IMG/VR virus record: IMGVR_UViG_3300030390_000789
Coordinates: 1 to 27,412 of that record
From: a virus
Length of the DNA stretch: 27,412 bases
Strand: one strand, 5' to 3'
Below, in pieces: positions 1,277 to 25,113 of the stretch. Within the stretch, counting starts at the first letter, position 1. Every line of letters begins with the position of its first letter. Made by a program: the position numbers and the translations under genes. The notes under the pieces were generated by a model, which worked only from the letters and a program-made list of their open reading frames with translations, searched no databases and had not been told where the DNA came from.

Positions 1277-1576
1277 TTAGAATGGCAAATCATTAGAATC
1301 TGACTCATCATTAGATGCAACTGCATCCTCTCTTTCAGCAGTAGAAACTCCTTCTCCTGATACCCACACAACTTTTCCGTTACCTAAATAAACCTTAGGG
1401 TTTTTAGCTTCTCTATCATCCTGTGATTGTGATACAGAAATACTTGCATTGTTACCATACTTTGTCTCATCATTTTGAAACATTGTAAGATTGATGTAAG
1501 AACCTTTCTTACCTTTAACGATTAACTCTTTTGGAATCGCTTCTAAATTGATACTGAAATTTGTTATTGCACTCAT
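1277..1576 (-). CDS. SSB-like single-strand DNA-binding protein
   Basis: A 99-residue protein ending in an acidic, disordered-looking tail that closes with DLPF (residues 96-99). This matches the C-terminal tip by which bacterial and phage single-strand-binding proteins recruit partners. Residues 1-75 are rich in beta-type sequence (FSINLEAI, SYINLTMF, ASISVSQ, PKVYLGNGKVVWV), compatible with a small OB fold, but I cannot match it to classical SSB. It is shorter than typical bacterial SSB (about 170 residues), and the tail follows the core almost directly. It is adjacent to other replication genes. A promoter-like TATATTTG lies 70 bases upstream and a terminator follows, so it may be a single-gene transcription unit. 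Confidence 0.6.
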   Translation of the reverse strand: MSAITNFSINLEAIPKELIVKGKKGSYINLTMFQNDETKYGNNASISVSQSQDDREAKNPKVYLGNGKVVWVSGEGVSTAEREDAVASNDESDSNDLPF

Positions 1577-2967: not shown

Positions 2968-3051
2968 TTATTTATTTTTATAATCTTGTATAGCAAACAC
3001 TACTTGCCAAAAAATCATTAATCCTATGTAAATCCATAATCCTATATCCAT
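2968..3051 (-). CDS. 27-residue predicted membrane peptide
   Basis: ATG 3051 to TAA 2968 encodes MDIGLWIYIGLMIFWQVVFA followed by IQDYKNK. This is one transmembrane-length hydrophobic stretch and a charged end. The stop is one base before the ATG of the DnaA-like gene (TAAAATG), the tight spacing seen throughout this phage. It lies between the structured-RNA region and the DnaA-like gene. It is too short for composition alone to prove coding, so confidence is limited. Confidence 0.4.
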   Translation of the reverse strand: MDIGLWIYIGLMIFWQVVFAIQDYKNK

Positions 3052-3083
3052 AACCTTTCATATATTTTTAACGTATGTTAAAG

Positions 3084-3231
3084 TAAGGTAGCTGATGAGC
3101 TGAATGTCTAACCCTTCTAAAAATTTTAATCCAACTCAACTAACTCCTTATCAGCCGAAGAGAGCATAGCTTCTTTTCCAATCGTGACGACCAAGCCTTA
3201 AAAGGATTAGACCACTCACTCTCTCCTAACT
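3084..3231 (-). ncRNA. Candidate structured RNA (rod-like), unknown function
   Basis: This stretch has no long open frame, is visibly richer in G and C than its neighbours, and lies just downstream of a TAnnTTTG promoter. In the minus-strand RNA, 3212-3196 pairs with 3122-3106 over 17 positions. The four non-identical positions of this inverted repeat all become G-U pairs in minus-strand RNA, but would be A-C clashes in plus-strand RNA. The helix extends outward: 3218-3214 with 3105-3101, 3221-3219 with 3099-3097, and UUAGG near 3229-3225 with CCUUA near 3088-3084. An alternative pairing exists between GGAGAGAG (3226-3219) and CUCUCUUC (3165-3158). The apical part (about 72 bases) can form further short hairpins. 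Ends are estimates from the promoter and the outer helix. It could be a phage small RNA, a long leader, or part of an origin. Confidence 0.5.
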
Positions 3232-3237
3232 GAGGTA

Positions 3238-3296
3238 CAAACATACAATAACATATTAGATTAAAATGTTAAAGGATTGTTAAAGTTATGTTAAAA
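3238..3296 (-). promoter_or_regulatory. Promoter for the structured RNA / DnaA-like operon, with upstream repeat
   Basis: The -7 box TATGTTTG is at 3245-3238. Upstream on the plus strand are several copies of TGTTAAAG-like sequence, including TGTTAAAGTTATGTTAAAA at 3278-3296, which overlaps the end of the exonuclease gene. The same 19-mer occurs in reverse orientation upstream of the promoter at 5974 and, with one change, at 22057. The expected start point is about 3231. Confidence 0.6.
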
Positions 3297-3950
3297 AACA
3301 TTTAGCTTTAATAAAAGATAGGTCCTAATCAACTTCTCTCTGCCTTTACTCTTATATAGTTTCTTGTATAATCCTAACACAGTTCTCATCATACCAAACT
3401 CACTCTTACCTTTAAAGTTTTTCTCACACCACTTAACACCATAACCTTTACACACTAAAACATTATCAGCTCTATCACCTACCACCATCTGCTCCCACAA
3501 ATTATATAGTGCTTCATCTTTACTAATCTTTATGAACTCTCTCTTATTGTAATTATATATGGTGCATTCAAATTGATTGTAATCTTTGTCAATGGATATT
3601 ATTACACTCTTATCCCTCCCATAATAATCTAAGAACTTAGCTACTAAATCATCAGTCTCCATACCTGACCTCATCTCTACATCTAAATTCTCTTTTACGT
3701 ACTCTATAAGCTCTTCTAAATGCTCAGGCTTATCTGAGGTCCTATTACCTTTATAAGTTGAATCTACGCTCTTTCTGTAGTTGTTAGTGCAGAATCCAAC
3801 ATTAATCATTTTGACGTTACCATATCGCATCTCCATATTATATACAATGTCTTTGTACTTACTCCAAAAGGAATCTGTAACTTCCTCAAAATCCTCTGAG
3901 TTATAACAGGATGCGTACACTATACTATCTATATCAAATATTCCTACCAT
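3291..3950 (-). CDS. 5'-3' exonuclease / flap endonuclease (PIN-FEN fold)
   Basis: A 219-residue protein with the acidic motifs of the T5/T4-type 5' nuclease family: FDID (5-8), the helical-arch-like segment NYRKSVDSTYKGNR (57-70), ETDD (98-101), SIDKDYNQ (119-126) and VVGDRADNVLVCKGYG (156-171), the last being the metal-binding and helix-hairpin-helix entry region. These residues bind two metal ions and DNA. It is close to the length of minimal phage versions (T4 RNase H is about 305). Likely roles are RNA primer removal and flap trimming during phage replication. The N-terminus overlaps the preceding small gene by seven bases, so translation is coupled. The stop lies inside the upstream part of the next promoter. 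Confidence 0.87.
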   Translation of the reverse strand: MVGIFDIDSIVYASCYNSEDFEEVTDSFWSKYKDIVYNMEMRYGNVKMINVGFCTNNYRKSVDSTYKGNRTSDKPEHLEELIEYVKENLDVEMRSGMETDDLVAKFLDYYGRDKSVIISIDKDYNQFECTIYNYNKREFIKISKDEALYNLWEQMVVGDRADNVLVCKGYGVKWCEKNFKGKSEFGMMRTVLGLYKKLYKSKGREKLIRTYLLLKLNVF

Positions 3951-5935: not shown

Positions 5936-5973
5936 AATTCTAATTTTTAAGTTGTTTGTCATTGTTGACTCTG

Positions 5974-6040
5974 CAAATATACAACAACATTTAAATACAA
6001 ACCTAATTTTATTAATAATTTTAACATAACTTTAACATTT
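5974..6040 (-). promoter_or_regulatory. Promoter TATATTTG with extended conserved upstream elements
   Basis: The -7 box TATATTTG is at 5981-5974, followed by GCAGAGT. The plus-strand reading shows CCTAATTTTAT in the -33 area and TTTTAACATAACTTTAACA from 6019, 37 bases from the box. The promoter at 22057 has the same three blocks at the same spacing. This looks like a specific promoter class and not chance AT-rich sequence. Confidence 0.7.
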
Positions 6041-9145: not shown

Positions 9146-9219
9146 CTTGATTTGTTTTTAAATAATGGAATAATGTTGTAGAAAGTTATTGACAATGTGT
9201 ATGAATTGCATTTGAAAAA

Positions 9220-9325
9220 GGTATCATTTTTGGTAAAAATCTGAAAAATTACAGAATTTGATACCAATTTTTTGAGGATTGGTAGGGTCCGAAGAGGGGT
9301 AGCCCTTAGTTATATATTATTAGTA
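9220..9325 (-). repeat. Intergenic repeat element, copy A (hairpin, possible terminator)
   Basis: A 106-base element beginning 19 bases after the nuclease stop. Its left part (9220-9265) is bounded by GGTATCA and TGATACC, able to form a stem, with inner GTAA/TTAC arms; T-runs lie on both outer sides. Its right part ends in a 30-base block (9296-9325) identical to 25070-25099 in copy B. The region between is G-rich on the plus strand. The inner core (9232-9252) is in the opposite orientation to that of copy B. As a terminator on the minus strand the stem is followed by TTTTT. Confidence 0.75.
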
Positions 9326-9344
9326 GTAACTAACTTAATAAAAA

Positions 9345-9868: not shown

Positions 9869-12800
9869 TTATGGTGTATCTGTTACTAAGTTTGAGTTAG
9901 TAAAGTTATACCCTGTTAAGTCAGCACTTCCACTTACATCTGTTATAGTTGTAACACTATTCTCTATCTCGTAATAATGAGAAGGAGCAGAAGCTAATAA
10001 ACTTAAATCTTGAGCTGAACCACTATTATATATAGTTGCTAAATTAGCAGACTCATCACTATTCCAAATAGCTACTTGATTTATAACACCATCAAAATAG
10101 TTATTATAAACATTGTTATCTCTACCTATTCTAAAGATGTTATCAGATACATCATTGCCATTTAAAACACCATCGTAACCATTGTTAGTATGTGAGCCAT
10201 ACTGAGTCTGAACTACACCATCAACTGCAATAGAAAATCTACTATAATAGTCAGAAAGGTCAGCTTGTGTTACTCCTGTAGTTCCACCATCGAATGTTAC
10301 TAATATGTGATTCCAAGAACCTACAATTAAACAACCTAAAGATGCAATAACTATCTTGTCACTTACAGTACCATACTGAAGTAAAAGGTTATTACCACCT
10401 GACTGATATAATGTAATTGCTCCTGTAGAAGTAGCACTACCTGAACCATAATTAAACAAAGTCTGAGAAGATGTAGTTGATGAAGGCTTAACCCACATAC
10501 TTAAACTCCAAGCATTACCATCTCCATTAGAAGCTCTATCCATAGCATTCATAAGAGTAGCATTACCCTGAGCAAAAGAACTCGTACCATTAAAGCTAAG
10601 AGATTTTGTATTGCTATAGCTCGTATCTTCTGTCACAGAAATAGTTACAGTAAAATCTACAGAACCTCCAATAGCATTACCTGCTTTACAAGTAACTACA
10701 ATAGTGTCGGCACTTGTACCTAAGAACGCAGGAGCAGTACCACTAAGCACTCCACTATTTTGATTCATAGTCATCCAACTTGGAGCGTCTACTTCAACAA
10801 ACTGATTTACTATATTGTCAGAGCTTATAACTTGATAGTTTAACACCTCTCCTTCTTCTATTGAAGCACTTTGGTCTGCTACAGTCGGCACATAATTTGA
10901 ATTAGGCTGATTGCTTTGACTTAAAGATTGCTTAGATATAACAGGAATAGAGTAATATGCTCTGTTACCTATCACACCATAGTATAAATGTACTGAGCTG
11001 CCTATTACAGGGTCCATCTTAGCTGTTGCTACTTTCACTCCTGCATCCTCATCATAGATAGTTAATTTACCATCATTGTTGAATCTCAATGAGAACATTC
11101 CTTGTACAGTTCCTGAACCACCACCTTCACGATATTGGTCTAAATTAGCTGCAAAGAAATAGCCATTAGCATTAGTGTTCATATCCCAATCATTAACCCC
11201 TCCTTGAGTAAATACTAAAGCCTCATTGGTTTGGTACTTAAATTGATTGTCAAGCTGCTCTTCAGCAGTTACAATACCTGTAGATGCGTTAGTGTAATTA
11301 GTACCAAAGTAGTCTCCTACTCCAACTTCGTCAAGCATAAACATAATCTTTTCACCTATCTCTATAGATATACCACTCTTTAAAATAGTGTGGTCTAAGA
11401 TTCCATTATCAATACCACCTTCTACATTATTGTAGTCGTGTACAATCTCCCATAAACTTTCTATATCTACAACCTGAGCTACAGGAAAGTTTTGATTTTG
11501 GTCAGACCCCATCTGTAAATTAAACTCAGTAACAGATAAGGCTATAGTTGTTTTCATAACTAAAACTTCAGCACCTGCTACAACATTTATTAAGCTCAGA
11601 TGCCCATCATTACCAAATCTCAATATCATTTCAGAACCCTGAATTGGAGTATAAGCACTTGCAGTATTGTTAGCAGTGATTAAATCCATATTTGTATTAA
11701 AATCTACAAACCCTTGTCCAAGCCATTTAAAGGCAGTACTCCAATTATAAGAGTAGATTCTTGAATTATATGTACCTCCTATAGCTTCAGTTCCTGCCCA
11801 TATTCCAAATACAGATTGTTTATTTACAAGTGTATGATTCCATTTCATCTCAGAACCTCTTGTCAAAGCTGCTCCAAAGTAGAAGGGAGCATTACCTGCG
11901 ACACCTGCTGCTAAGTTAGTTTGAGGATGATTTACTGCTGCGTTAGCATCAGTTCCGTAAGATACAAACCAATTTGCTCCACCACTCGCTAAAGTAGAAG
12001 AACCATTAATCATATTGGTAGCGTCAATAGTTATCTGAGTTGCATCATCTAAAACCAATACTAAATCAGTTCCTACAACAGAACCACTAACAACAGGGTT
12101 ACCTGAACTACCTGCTCCACCTAAAGTAGATGCATCGATAGTTAATGTAGAACCATCACTTACGTCTAATAAGATGTCAGTTCCACTAACTTCACCACCT
12201 GTTATAGTAGTATCTGTATCTATTGACAAACTTGAAGCATCTATAGTAACTGTTGAAGTGTCACTCATAGTAAGAACTAAATCAGTTCCACTTAATACAC
12301 CACTCTCAACATATAAAGTAGTATCTACTGATAAAGAAGATACATCTATAGTAATTACTGATGTGTTACTTAAAGTCAACTCTAAATCATCTCCATTAAT
12401 AGTACCACTCTCAACTACATCGTTAGTGTCTAAAGCTAAACTTGAAGCATCTATTACTACTGTAGTAGCATCATCCATTGTAAGAGTTAAATCTGAACCA
12501 CTTAATGAACCTGAAGCTACAAAGTTATTTTCGTCAACTCCCAAAGAAGTTACATCTACAGTATAAGATACTCCATCATTTAAACCTAAAGTTAAATTAT
12601 TACCACTTAATGTGAAAGAGTTAACAAAGGTATCAGGAGAGATAAATCCTGAAGTATTGGTAAATACCTCATTTAGTTGTACTACTGCCTGATTAAGTAC
12701 AGAGTTAACAAAAGAACCATCAATACTAATAGCATTCACAGGTAAGGATTCTACTATAATCTTAGCACCATCTTTAATCTTAATCTGTATCTCTGAGCCA

Positions 12801-13798
12801 TTTGCAGTAGCCTCTAAGGTATTAACTGCGTGAGGAACTAATACACTATCAGAACCTAAAGATAAATCCCTTAAAAGAACAGTAGAACCTGTAGAATCTA
12901 ATTTAAAATCCATAGCTTTGTACTTCAAATAAGGACTAATGAGTTCTAAGTCTTTATCCTCAAACAATCTATTATGTACAGTTGCTTGGTATCGAAAAAG
13001 TCCCGTATTTGGGTCTACAGTATCTCCTTGCTTAACTAAAAATACACCTAAATCAACATCGTCAGAAATACGAACTTTATGTATCTCAGCAAAAAGCGTA
13101 GTTCCTGCTCTTACATCTACAGGGTGGTCGAAAAACCATTCGATAATATCTCCATCGTATATATGGTCGTTAGCAGTAGAACGTGCTGCGTTACGTGGTA
13201 AAACTTGCTTATATACATTTCTACCTGCTATTTCAATTCTATACTCCAATCTAATAGTTTCGTCAACTTCCTCTGCTGCTACTGTTGTAATTCCTAAACC
13301 TGTTATGTTTACACCAAAGTAGTTATCTCCTTCGTACCCTACTGCTACTAATGGGTTAGGTTGTCCTCCTAAAGGCAAACTAAACATATCAGAATAAACT
13401 CTACCACTTGGAGGTATGAAACCACTTGCACCTTGATTAACTGTTAACGCTTGGTCTTTCAATCCTCCCCACATAGGGAAAAAGTTAATATCAGAAGTCA
13501 AGTTAGTGAAAAATATATTTTCAGAACCCGATGACATCTTATGTTGCTCTCCTAAGAATAAAGAGTTAAGAGTTGTTTCAATAGCTCTATCAGCAATTAA
13601 TTGGTCTTGCTCTTCGTCATATTCAAAATGCTTTAGTGTGTCAGTATGGTCTGAACCTGCTATCTTTTGAGGTAATTGATTTTCATCATATACAAATAAT
13701 TCCTTTGTGTCTACTGCTATAAACTGAGAGCCATAAGGTAAAGATGGGATTAATTCAGACTTTAAGCCTGTAAACTGTTTCTGCGTTTTTCTAATCAT
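9869..13798 (-). CDS. Large tail fibre / adhesin with beta repeats, Ig-like and LamG-like domains
   Basis: A 1309-residue protein, the largest here. Residues 1 to about 390 form an N-terminal part that probably joins it to the virion. About 393-600 hold five to six tandem repeats of roughly 35 residues of the form SGTDLVLTMSD-x-STVTIDASSL, likely a beta-helical or fibrous shaft. A middle region (about 600-960) has two related beta segments with LRFGNDGHLSLIN and LRFNNDGKLTIYD. About 968-1058 is an Ig/cadherin-like domain (QSASIEEGEVLNYQV, APSWMTMNQNSGVLSGTAP). About 1064-1257 is a concanavalin/LamG-like domain (SLSFNGTSS, WSLSMWVKP, GSWNHILVTFDGG, NYFDGVINQVAIWN). Inference: receptor-binding fibre recognising host glycans. 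It follows the holin gene and ends at a strong terminator, so it is the last virion gene of the late operon. Confidence 0.8.
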   Translation of the reverse strand: MIRKTQKQFTGLKSELIPSLPYGSQFIAVDTKELFVYDENQLPQKIAGSDHTDTLKHFEYDEEQDQLIADRAIETTLNSLFLGEQHKMSSGSENIFFTNLTSDINFFPMWGGLKDQALTVNQGASGFIPPSGRVYSDMFSLPLGGQPNPLVAVGYEGDNYFGVNITGLGITTVAAEEVDETIRLEYRIEIAGRNVYKQVLPRNAARSTANDHIYDGDIIEWFFDHPVDVRAGTTLFAEIHKVRISDDVDLGVFLVKQGDTVDPNTGLFRYQATVHNRLFEDKDLELISPYLKYKAMDFKLDSTGSTVLLRDLSLGSDSVLVPHAVNTLEATANGSEIQIKIKDGAKIIVESLPVNAISIDGSFVNSVLNQAVVQLNEVFTNTSGFISPDTFVNSFTLSGNNLTLGLNDGVSYTVDVTSLGVDENNFVASGSLSGSDLTLTMDDATTVVIDASSLALDTNDVVESGTINGDDLELTLSNTSVITIDVSSLSVDTTLYVESGVLSGTDLVLTMSDTSTVTIDASSLSIDTDTTITGGEVSGTDILLDVSDGSTLTIDASTLGGAGSSGNPVVSGSVVGTDLVLVLDDATQITIDATNMINGSSTLASGGANWFVSYGTDANAAVNHPQTNLAAGVAGNAPFYFGAALTRGSEMKWNHTLVNKQSVFGIWAGTEAIGGTYNSRIYSYNWSTAFKWLGQGFVDFNTNMDLITANNTASAYTPIQGSEMILRFGNDGHLSLINVVAGAEVLVMKTTIALSVTEFNLQMGSDQNQNFPVAQVVDIESLWEIVHDYNNVEGGIDNGILDHTILKSGISIEIGEKIMFMLDEVGVGDYFGTNYTNASTGIVTAEEQLDNQFKYQTNEALVFTQGGVNDWDMNTNANGYFFAANLDQYREGGGSGTVQGMFSLRFNNDGKLTIYDEDAGVKVATAKMDPVIGSSVHLYYGVIGNRAYYSIPVISKQSLSQSNQPNSNYVPTVADQSASIEEGEVLNYQVISSDNIVNQFVEVDAPSWMTMNQNSGVLSGTAPAFLGTSADTIVVTCKAGNAIGGSVDFTVTISVTEDTSYSNTKSLSFNGTSSFAQGNATLMNAMDRASNGDGNAWSLSMWVKPSSTTSSQTLFNYGSGSATSTGAITLYQSGGNNLLLQYGTVSDKIVIASLGCLIVGSWNHILVTFDGGTTGVTQADLSDYYSRFSIAVDGVVQTQYGSHTNNGYDGVLNGNDVSDNIFRIGRDNNVYNNYFDGVINQVAIWNSDESANLATIYNSGSAQDLSLLASAPSHYYEIENSVTTITDVSGSADLTGYNFTNSNLVTDTP

Positions 13799-21728: not shown

Positions 21729-22025
21729 TTAGTTCTTTAATTTAATATAATAGCAGTCGTAAACCATTTGTTCTTTATCACAAGGGGAAACTGCTCCATT
21801 GATAAAAGAGCCTTTACCAAATATTTTCTCTAATTGATAATCTTGTATATTTTTGTCATCATCAATAACTACGCACATTTGAGGCTTACCTTTCCATTGA
21901 TTCAGAGAAAAACTATTGTTGTGTATTTTCTTATCGTTAATTTTTTTGTTATAAACCCATAAGTGTTCAACATTACCCTTTAAACTTCTTTTAAACTGTT
22001 CGTCTGTTAATTTTATTGCTTTCAT
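21729..22025 (-). CDS. 98-residue protein, first gene of a moron-like cassette
   Basis: I chose ATG 22025 (AATTATG context, about 25 bases after the expected start point); an in-frame ATG at 22067 lies upstream of the -7 box. The protein is basic with KLTDEQFKRSLKGNVEHLWV, a Lys/Asn-rich region and a C-terminal part with two Cys (CDKEQMVYDCYYIK). Not recognised. It is flanked upstream by a strong terminator and its own promoter and sits inside the virion gene block, the classical layout of a moron, a gene expressed independently of the late operon. Host-directed function is inference. Confidence 0.6.
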   Translation of the reverse strand: MKAIKLTDEQFKRSLKGNVEHLWVYNKKINDKKIHNNSFSLNQWKGKPQMCVVIDDDKNIQDYQLEKIFGKGSFINGAVSPCDKEQMVYDCYYIKLKN

Positions 22026-22056
22026 AATTTCTAAGTTTTTGTTTTTAATTACTCTG

Positions 22057-22123
22057 CAAACATACAACTTTATATAAATGTAATCCTAATTTTATATCTA
22101 ATTTTAACAAAACTTTAACATTT
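22057..22123 (-). promoter_or_regulatory. Promoter TATGTTTG with extended conserved upstream elements
   Basis: The -7 box TATGTTTG is at 22064-22057, followed by GCAGAGT. Plus-strand CCTAATTTTAT and TTTTAACAAAACTTTAACA (from 22102, 37 bases from the box) match the promoter at 5974 in sequence and spacing. It lies between the strong terminator at 22133 and the cassette gene. Confidence 0.72.
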
Positions 22124-24919: not shown

Positions 24920-24993
24920 ATATTAAGATAACGTTTTTTATTAATTATTGTTATTACCCCCTCTTAAATTGTGTTAAAATTATGTTAACAAAA

Positions 24994-25099
24994 GGTATCA
25001 TTTTTGGTAATTTTTCAGATTTTTACCGATTTTGATACCATTTTTTTGAGGGTTTACGGGGTGCCATTGGGGGTAGCCCTTAGTTATATATTATTAGTA
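24994..25099 (-). repeat. Intergenic repeat element, copy B (hairpin, possible terminator)
   Basis: A 106-base element starting 14 bases after the tape-measure stop, same length as copy A. It is bounded by GGTATCA (24994-25000) and TGATACC (25033-25039). Its inner core (25007-25027) is the reverse complement of the core of copy A, while both outer arms have the same orientation. The 30-base right block (25070-25099) is identical to copy A. The remaining gap to the protease start (24920-24993) is AT-rich and shows TTTTGTTAACATAATTTTAA, related to the promoter upstream elements, but no clear -7 box. Confidence 0.75.
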
Positions 25100-25113
25100 A
25101 TAGCTTCTTTATT

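Follow-up and report, generated by a model that had tools for sequence, protein, structure and literature searches.

Two covarying RNA hairpins in the replication operon of a small clade of marine phages

Comparison with related phages shows that the minus strand of the phage DNA analysed here encodes a pair of conserved but separate RNA hairpins (HP1 and HP2), each carrying an invariant or nearly invariant apex on a covarying stem. On our best reading, they form a structured RNA module of the phage replication operon that is new and restricted to one clade. The window, that is, the whole stretch of DNA that was analysed, is 27,412 bases long and comes from a virus record of 27,918 bases. Almost all of its genes lie on the minus strand. 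The portal protein encoded in the window shares 36% identity with the one in the Nonlabens phages P12024S/L, for which Persicivirga sp. IMCC12024 is the listed host. The hairpins occupy a 324-base gap between two minus-strand genes. The upstream gene, which also precedes the promoter, encodes a 219-aa 5'-3' exonuclease-like protein (3291-3950) recognized by tblastn matches to phage exonucleases and by a Pfam match (PF02739, E 4.7e-7) that falls under the curated cut-off. The downstream gene encodes a 155-aa protein with a DnaA C-terminal, DnaA-box binding domain (2499-2966; PF08299, E 2e-8). Between HP2 and this DnaA-like gene lies a membrane-type micro-ORF of 27 codons on the minus strand (MDIGLWIYIGLMIFWQVVFAIQDYKNK; 2968-3051), recognized from its sequence and translation.

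A preliminary description of this locus had proposed a non-coding RNA, expressed from a TAnnTTTG promoter, that can fold into one rod with an apical region of about 72 bases. Parts of this proposal held. The stretch is indeed less AT-rich than its surroundings, with a GC content of 40.5% compared with 33.0% for the whole window and 21-26% for the flanks. It is also non-coding: the sole frame that stays open across part of it, which begins within the promoter box and runs for 34 codons, stops after 10 codons in the homologous locus L005 and after 15 in L020. Likewise, protein-coding readings of HP1 were rejected, the frames being broken in homologues. Folding of positions 3060-3240 gave -51.6 kcal/mol for the minus strand (z -3.12; 1 of 200 shuffles equally good) and -30.4 kcal/mol for the plus strand, which showed no excess stability (z -0.51; 55 of 200 shuffles equally good). 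In minus-strand RNA the proposed helix (3212-3196 with 3122-3106) can pair at all 17 of its positions, with G-U pairs at four. The strand-specific wobble signal is genuine; its source is HP1 and HP2, however, and not the rod. The minimum-free-energy fold is a pair of tandem hairpins at -49.0 kcal/mol, whereas the rod, when forced, reaches -43.7 kcal/mol, a deficit of 5.3 kcal/mol with a pair probability of about 0.002. Nor is the rod conserved: L005, the closest homologue with both parts, can form 9 of the 17 pairs, and the forced rod there has an energy of -17.2 compared with -48.0 kcal/mol. Complementarity between the apices of HP1 and HP2 is strong in the window, where the apex-apex duplex (-24.7 kcal/mol) beats all 300 shuffles, but it is not significant in L005 or L007, and L020 carries the same HP1 allele with no HP2 alongside. 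Because L005 keeps only nine of the pairs and apex complementarity is not significant in L005 or L007, we set the rod aside; that it is a functional structure or an alternative switch state is very improbable. The lesson is that a convincing wobble pattern may mark the correct strand yet the wrong helix.

The preferred fold of minus-strand RNA from 3083-3234 consists of two abutting hairpins. HP1 (3234-3151, minus strand) is an 84-nt hairpin found in both the minimum-free-energy and the centroid folds and matched by covariance model R1. It has a basal stem of 15-16 bp with one bulge, followed by short helices split by mostly symmetric small loops and an apical hexaloop, UUGGUC (3189-3194, minus strand). 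This hexaloop, located by alignment A7 and the folds, reads UU[G/C]GUC in six of six distinct copies and is carried on a three-pair stem whose pairs covary. HP2 (3149-3084, minus strand), a 66-nt hairpin that begins one base after HP1 and is matched by model R2, has two covarying stem segments below a nearly invariant apex. This apex, GGAUUAAAA.UU.UAG.AGGGUUA..CAUUC (3102-3132, minus strand), is the most conserved part of HP2 in alignments A6 and A8. HP1 is exactly 84 nt long in the window, L003, L005 and L020, and HP2 is exactly 66 nt long in every copy.

We gathered homologous loci from viral contigs with the DnaA-like protein (18 loci), an alignment of its relatives (80), the exonuclease (80) and the protein encoded downstream at window positions 1277-1576 (21). 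Model R1 recovered HP1 in the window and in L003, L004, L005, L020, L022 and L007 (E 1e-24 to 4e-9 across the six contigs), together with a weak, diverged copy in L002. Model R2 recovered HP2 in the window, L005, L006 and L007 (E 1e-20 to 1e-18). L023 and L024 are the contigs of L003 and L005, and the distinct sequences known number only six for HP1 and four for HP2. Across the six distinct HP1 rows, 94.8% of cells were paired, 14 of 28 pairs had changed on both sides and none of 500 shuffles reached the observed covariation score. For HP2, 95.7% of cells were paired, 7 of 23 pairs had changed on both sides and, again, 0 of 500 shuffles reached the score. Sliding the partners by 1-3 columns lowered HP1 pairing to 37-53% and removed the compensatory signal from both hairpins. 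Alignments A7 and A8 were fitted to the models and so are biased towards them; the double changes were already visible in the gap-free, sequence-only alignments A4 (four HP1) and A6 (three HP2). Compensatory changes, by which the preliminary description proposed to judge its RNA, are thus present in both hairpins and preserve a common structure, as in a structured non-coding RNA family. These matched mutations in related phages show that HP1 and HP2 are both maintained by selection. When folding energy was scanned along the entire window, 37 of 1952 tiles fell at z below -3. Energy by itself is therefore weak evidence, and the case rests on covariation.

The position of the promoter bears on where this RNA would begin. 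Flavobacterial sigma-A promoters carry TAnnTTTG at -12 to -5 (PMC9723704), and the box reported by the preliminary description is present at 3245-3238 on the minus strand (TATGTTTG). The +1 predicted from this box, at about 3233, coincides with the first paired base of HP1. The box is kept in L005, L020, L006 and L007, and in L003 as TATTTTTG; in L006 and L007 the promoter is retained with the start ACCTCA where no hairpins come next. Upstream of the promoter are three TGTTAAA(G) repeats with 11-bp spacing (3267-3295). A search with TGTTAAAGNNNTGTTAAA gave seven matches at up to two mismatches, four of them exact, against 0.43 expected, and the palindrome TTTAACATACGTTAAA just 3' of HP2 (3067-3082) belongs to the same repeat vocabulary. 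Direct repeats of TGTTAAAGnnnTGTTAAA with 11-bp spacing precede three operon promoters in the window (3267-3295, 6020-6037 and 22103-22120), lying 21-38 bp upstream of TAnnTTTG boxes, and they are present in L224 and L230 too. They are a likely binding site for a phage-specific regulator, which could possibly be the DnaA-domain protein. Other repeats were also seen in the window. An operon promoter and leader are duplicated at 5938-6040 and 22021-22123 (minus strand; 76% identity over 103 nt). A second repeated non-coding element occurs at 9190-9335 and 24964-25110 (minus strand; about 80% identity across some 135 nt); it contains the invariant block ACTAATAATATATAACTAAGGGCTACCCC and a terminator-like hairpin, GGTATCA..TGATACCTTTT. 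Three 95-nt repeats with 105-nt spacing and 69-73% identity lie at 12216-12520, inside a 1309-aa ORF (9869-13798).

The arrangement of the hairpins differs between contigs. Read along the coding strand, the order is promoter-HP1-HP2-micro-ORF-DnaA-like in the window, promoter-HP1-HP2-DnaA-like in L005, and promoter-HP1-DnaA-like in L003, L004, L020 and L022. In L006, a contig fragment, it is promoter-DnaA-like-50 aa gene-HP2-small membrane ORF, and in L007 it is promoter-DnaA-like-50 aa gene-HP2-third hairpin-HP1-next promoter. L002 has small gene-diverged HP1-DnaA-like. The hairpins are therefore separable, with HP1 alone, HP2 alone or, in L007, both in reversed order. The third hairpin of L007 (5695-5755, plus strand), between HP2 and HP1, contains a stretch, GUGGUUGU, that resembles the HP1 apex UUGGUCGU. 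The membrane micro-ORFs found 3' of HP2 on the coding strand in the window (27 aa) and in L006/L193 look unrelated to one another.

These arrangements bear on the suggestion that the RNA is a leader controlling the DnaA-like gene, or more specifically that HP1 is a translational operator bound by the product of that gene or by another phage protein. HP1 does lie upstream of the gene in the window, L003, L004, L005, L020, L022 and, as a diverged copy, L002, at about 20-30 nt from the start codon in the loci without HP2. L007, however, keeps both gene and promoter, and its HP1 lies beyond the gene on the downstream side. The promoter of L006 and L007 fronts the DnaA-like gene with no hairpins in between and HP2 follows the gene, so that neither hairpin holds a fixed position at its translation start. 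We also found that HP1 falls into two apical alleles, window/L020 and L003/L005, with 88-91% identity within and 42-49% between them, and these match the relatedness of neither the DnaA-like nor the exonuclease gene. The window and L003 share 93% identity in the DnaA-like protein but 49% in the HP1 apex, whereas the window and L020 share 60% in the protein and 91% in the apex. By comparison, the basal arms of HP1 are 95-100% identical between contigs, beside neighbours with dS of about 0.4-1.1 (DnaA-like) and 1.1-3.8 (exonuclease). Hairpin movement and allele mosaicism indicate that the hairpins are uncoupled from the DnaA-like gene, which argues for a portable element; separable, reorderable hairpins whose allele does not track the gene argue against a dedicated DnaA leader. 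We consider an operator of this kind quite improbable.

The main rival to a cis-acting element is that HP1 and HP2 are trans-acting small RNAs, processed from operon UTRs, that bind an RNA of the phage or host, or else titrate a protein of the host. Free placement relative to genes, a reversible order, apices conserved in sequence and two HP1 apical alleles tracking neither neighbouring gene would all suit such RNAs. Against this, apex-complementary targets in the phage transcripts of the window, L005 and L007 included none that recurred, and the 3' end of HP2 has no reported terminator-like site; we regard trans action as unlikely, if well short of negligible. By analogy with T7, the hairpins might instead be RNase III-type processing sites between or before cistrons, in keeping with their long, near-continuous stems, their intercistronic or leader positions and their freedom to move. 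A conserved apex is unnecessary for processing, yet the apex is the most conserved part of HP2 and the HP1 hexaloop is UU[G/C]GUC throughout, and this makes simple processing sites a distinctly unlikely account.

HP1 and HP2 are confined to a small marine phage clade that is a distant relative of the Nonlabens phages. Rfam searches of the whole window at the gathering threshold returned no family match to the hairpin region, and a search of 2980-3300 at E up to 5 returned two chance snoRNA matches on 321 bases and nothing else. The 6S RNA covariance model had no match in either search, which, with the absence of a central bubble, leaves the 6S-type assignment that had been suggested without support. 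CRISPR direct-repeat families held in Rfam, as would be relevant to an anti-CRISPR RNA decoy, likewise gave no match at E up to 5. A blastn comparison of the intergenic stretch with deposited phages found three 34-base chance matches only. Models R1 and R2, run on 395 sampled Bacteroidia genomes, gave marginal matches near chance expectation and no convincing copy in a host. Among the 47 virus records searched whole, the other relatives had neither HP1 nor HP2. Matches to the HP1 and HP2 DNA patterns outside the known clade in IMG/VR lacked a flanking hairpin and none was confirmed by the models, and the same was true of model confirmation for ten HP2-pattern matches in bacterial and archaeal genomes. 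A weak HP2-like match in a cousin phage (score 17.5) was dropped because it lies inside a long ORF resembling, by eye, a DNA methyltransferase. A literature search of open-licence papers found no description of this element. Absences within the clade are weak evidence because many members are contig fragments.

Considering these observations together, we tentatively favour, at rather less than even confidence, an explanation in which the separate conserved hairpins are made in the operon transcript and act in cis through a bound protein. HP1 and HP2 would be made within the replication-operon transcript from the TAnnTTTG promoter, with HP1 as its 5'-terminal stem-loop, and would act on their own transcript as a portable module recognized by host RNA polymerase, a host nuclease or a phage protein. 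The effect would be to change elongation past downstream terminators, processing or stability, as opposed to governing how a single adjacent gene is started. Foremost among the candidate forms are put-like antitermination, protection of the 5' end, and processing. This reading is suggested by strand-specific folding, by compensatory changes and conserved apices on changing stems, and by basal arms of HP1 that stay nearly identical beside diverged neighbour genes. It is further suggested by the coincidence of the predicted +1 with the first paired base of HP1, by an upstream repeat common to two other phage promoters and by the shifting of the hairpins along the operon. Conversely, a conserved apex with a variable allele is also compatible with a trans-acting RNA, the distinct sequences are few, and the diverged HP1 of L002 sits between two genes without a promoter box directly in front. 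Of the regulatory RNA first proposed, what stands is a selected, minus-strand, promoter-proximal RNA, on the strength of its compensatory changes; the rod, the 6S type and the dedicated DnaA leader do not. Structured RNAs of Bacteroidota-infecting phages are little described, and this one is without a match in Rfam, deposited phages or the sampled Bacteroidia genomes. Covariation, a promoter that fits the 5' end and homologues with parts moved, lost or swapped mean that few constructs would separate the cis and trans models.

Several known systems offer points of comparison. 6S RNA forms one long hairpin whose large central bubble mimics an open promoter. HP1 and HP2 share with it, 6S-Flavo included, a long imperfect hairpin and the host phylum, but they are two abutting hairpins by fold and covariation, have no large central bubble and are restricted to a phage clade. 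The RNase III processing hairpins of T7 are intercistronic or leader hairpins in polycistronic phage RNA, a similar setting; here, the apices are conserved and cleavage is only putative. Translational operators in phages, for example those for T4 gp32 and the MS2 coat protein, place a hairpin near the start codon of a gene for a nucleic-acid-binding protein, as most copies here do relative to the DnaA-like gene, whereas the elements of L006 and L007 lie downstream of it. In HK022, put RNA needs no phage protein to carry RNA polymerase past terminators; it acts through the zinc-binding domain of the beta' subunit. Within a cis reading, the best anatomical fit would be a put-like element at the 5' end or in the early transcript, or else a stabilizing or processing stem-loop. 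That HP1 and HP2 are a portable, two-part put-like antiterminator outside lambdoid phages is a long shot; such an element would act on Bacteroidota RNA polymerase without a dedicated phage protein, with separable, reorderable hairpins and apical alleles exchanged by recombination. The two hairpins together span about 150 nt compared with about 70 for putL and putR, belong to another phage with a host of another phylum, have no established sequence relation to them, and are separable with an order that can swap, and antitermination here is only putative. The two-stem-loop anatomy near the promoter is found in the window and L005, with HP1 only in L003/L020 and HP2 only in L006 at the sites seen. 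The put RNAs are likewise two stem-loops close to early promoters, of which one lies at the start and the other some 270 nt further downstream, and putL and putR share with HP1 and HP2 two adjacent bulged stem-loops, proximity to a promoter, putatively an early one here, and no single promoter distance (PMC9378689), a likeness that also argues for the cis reading.
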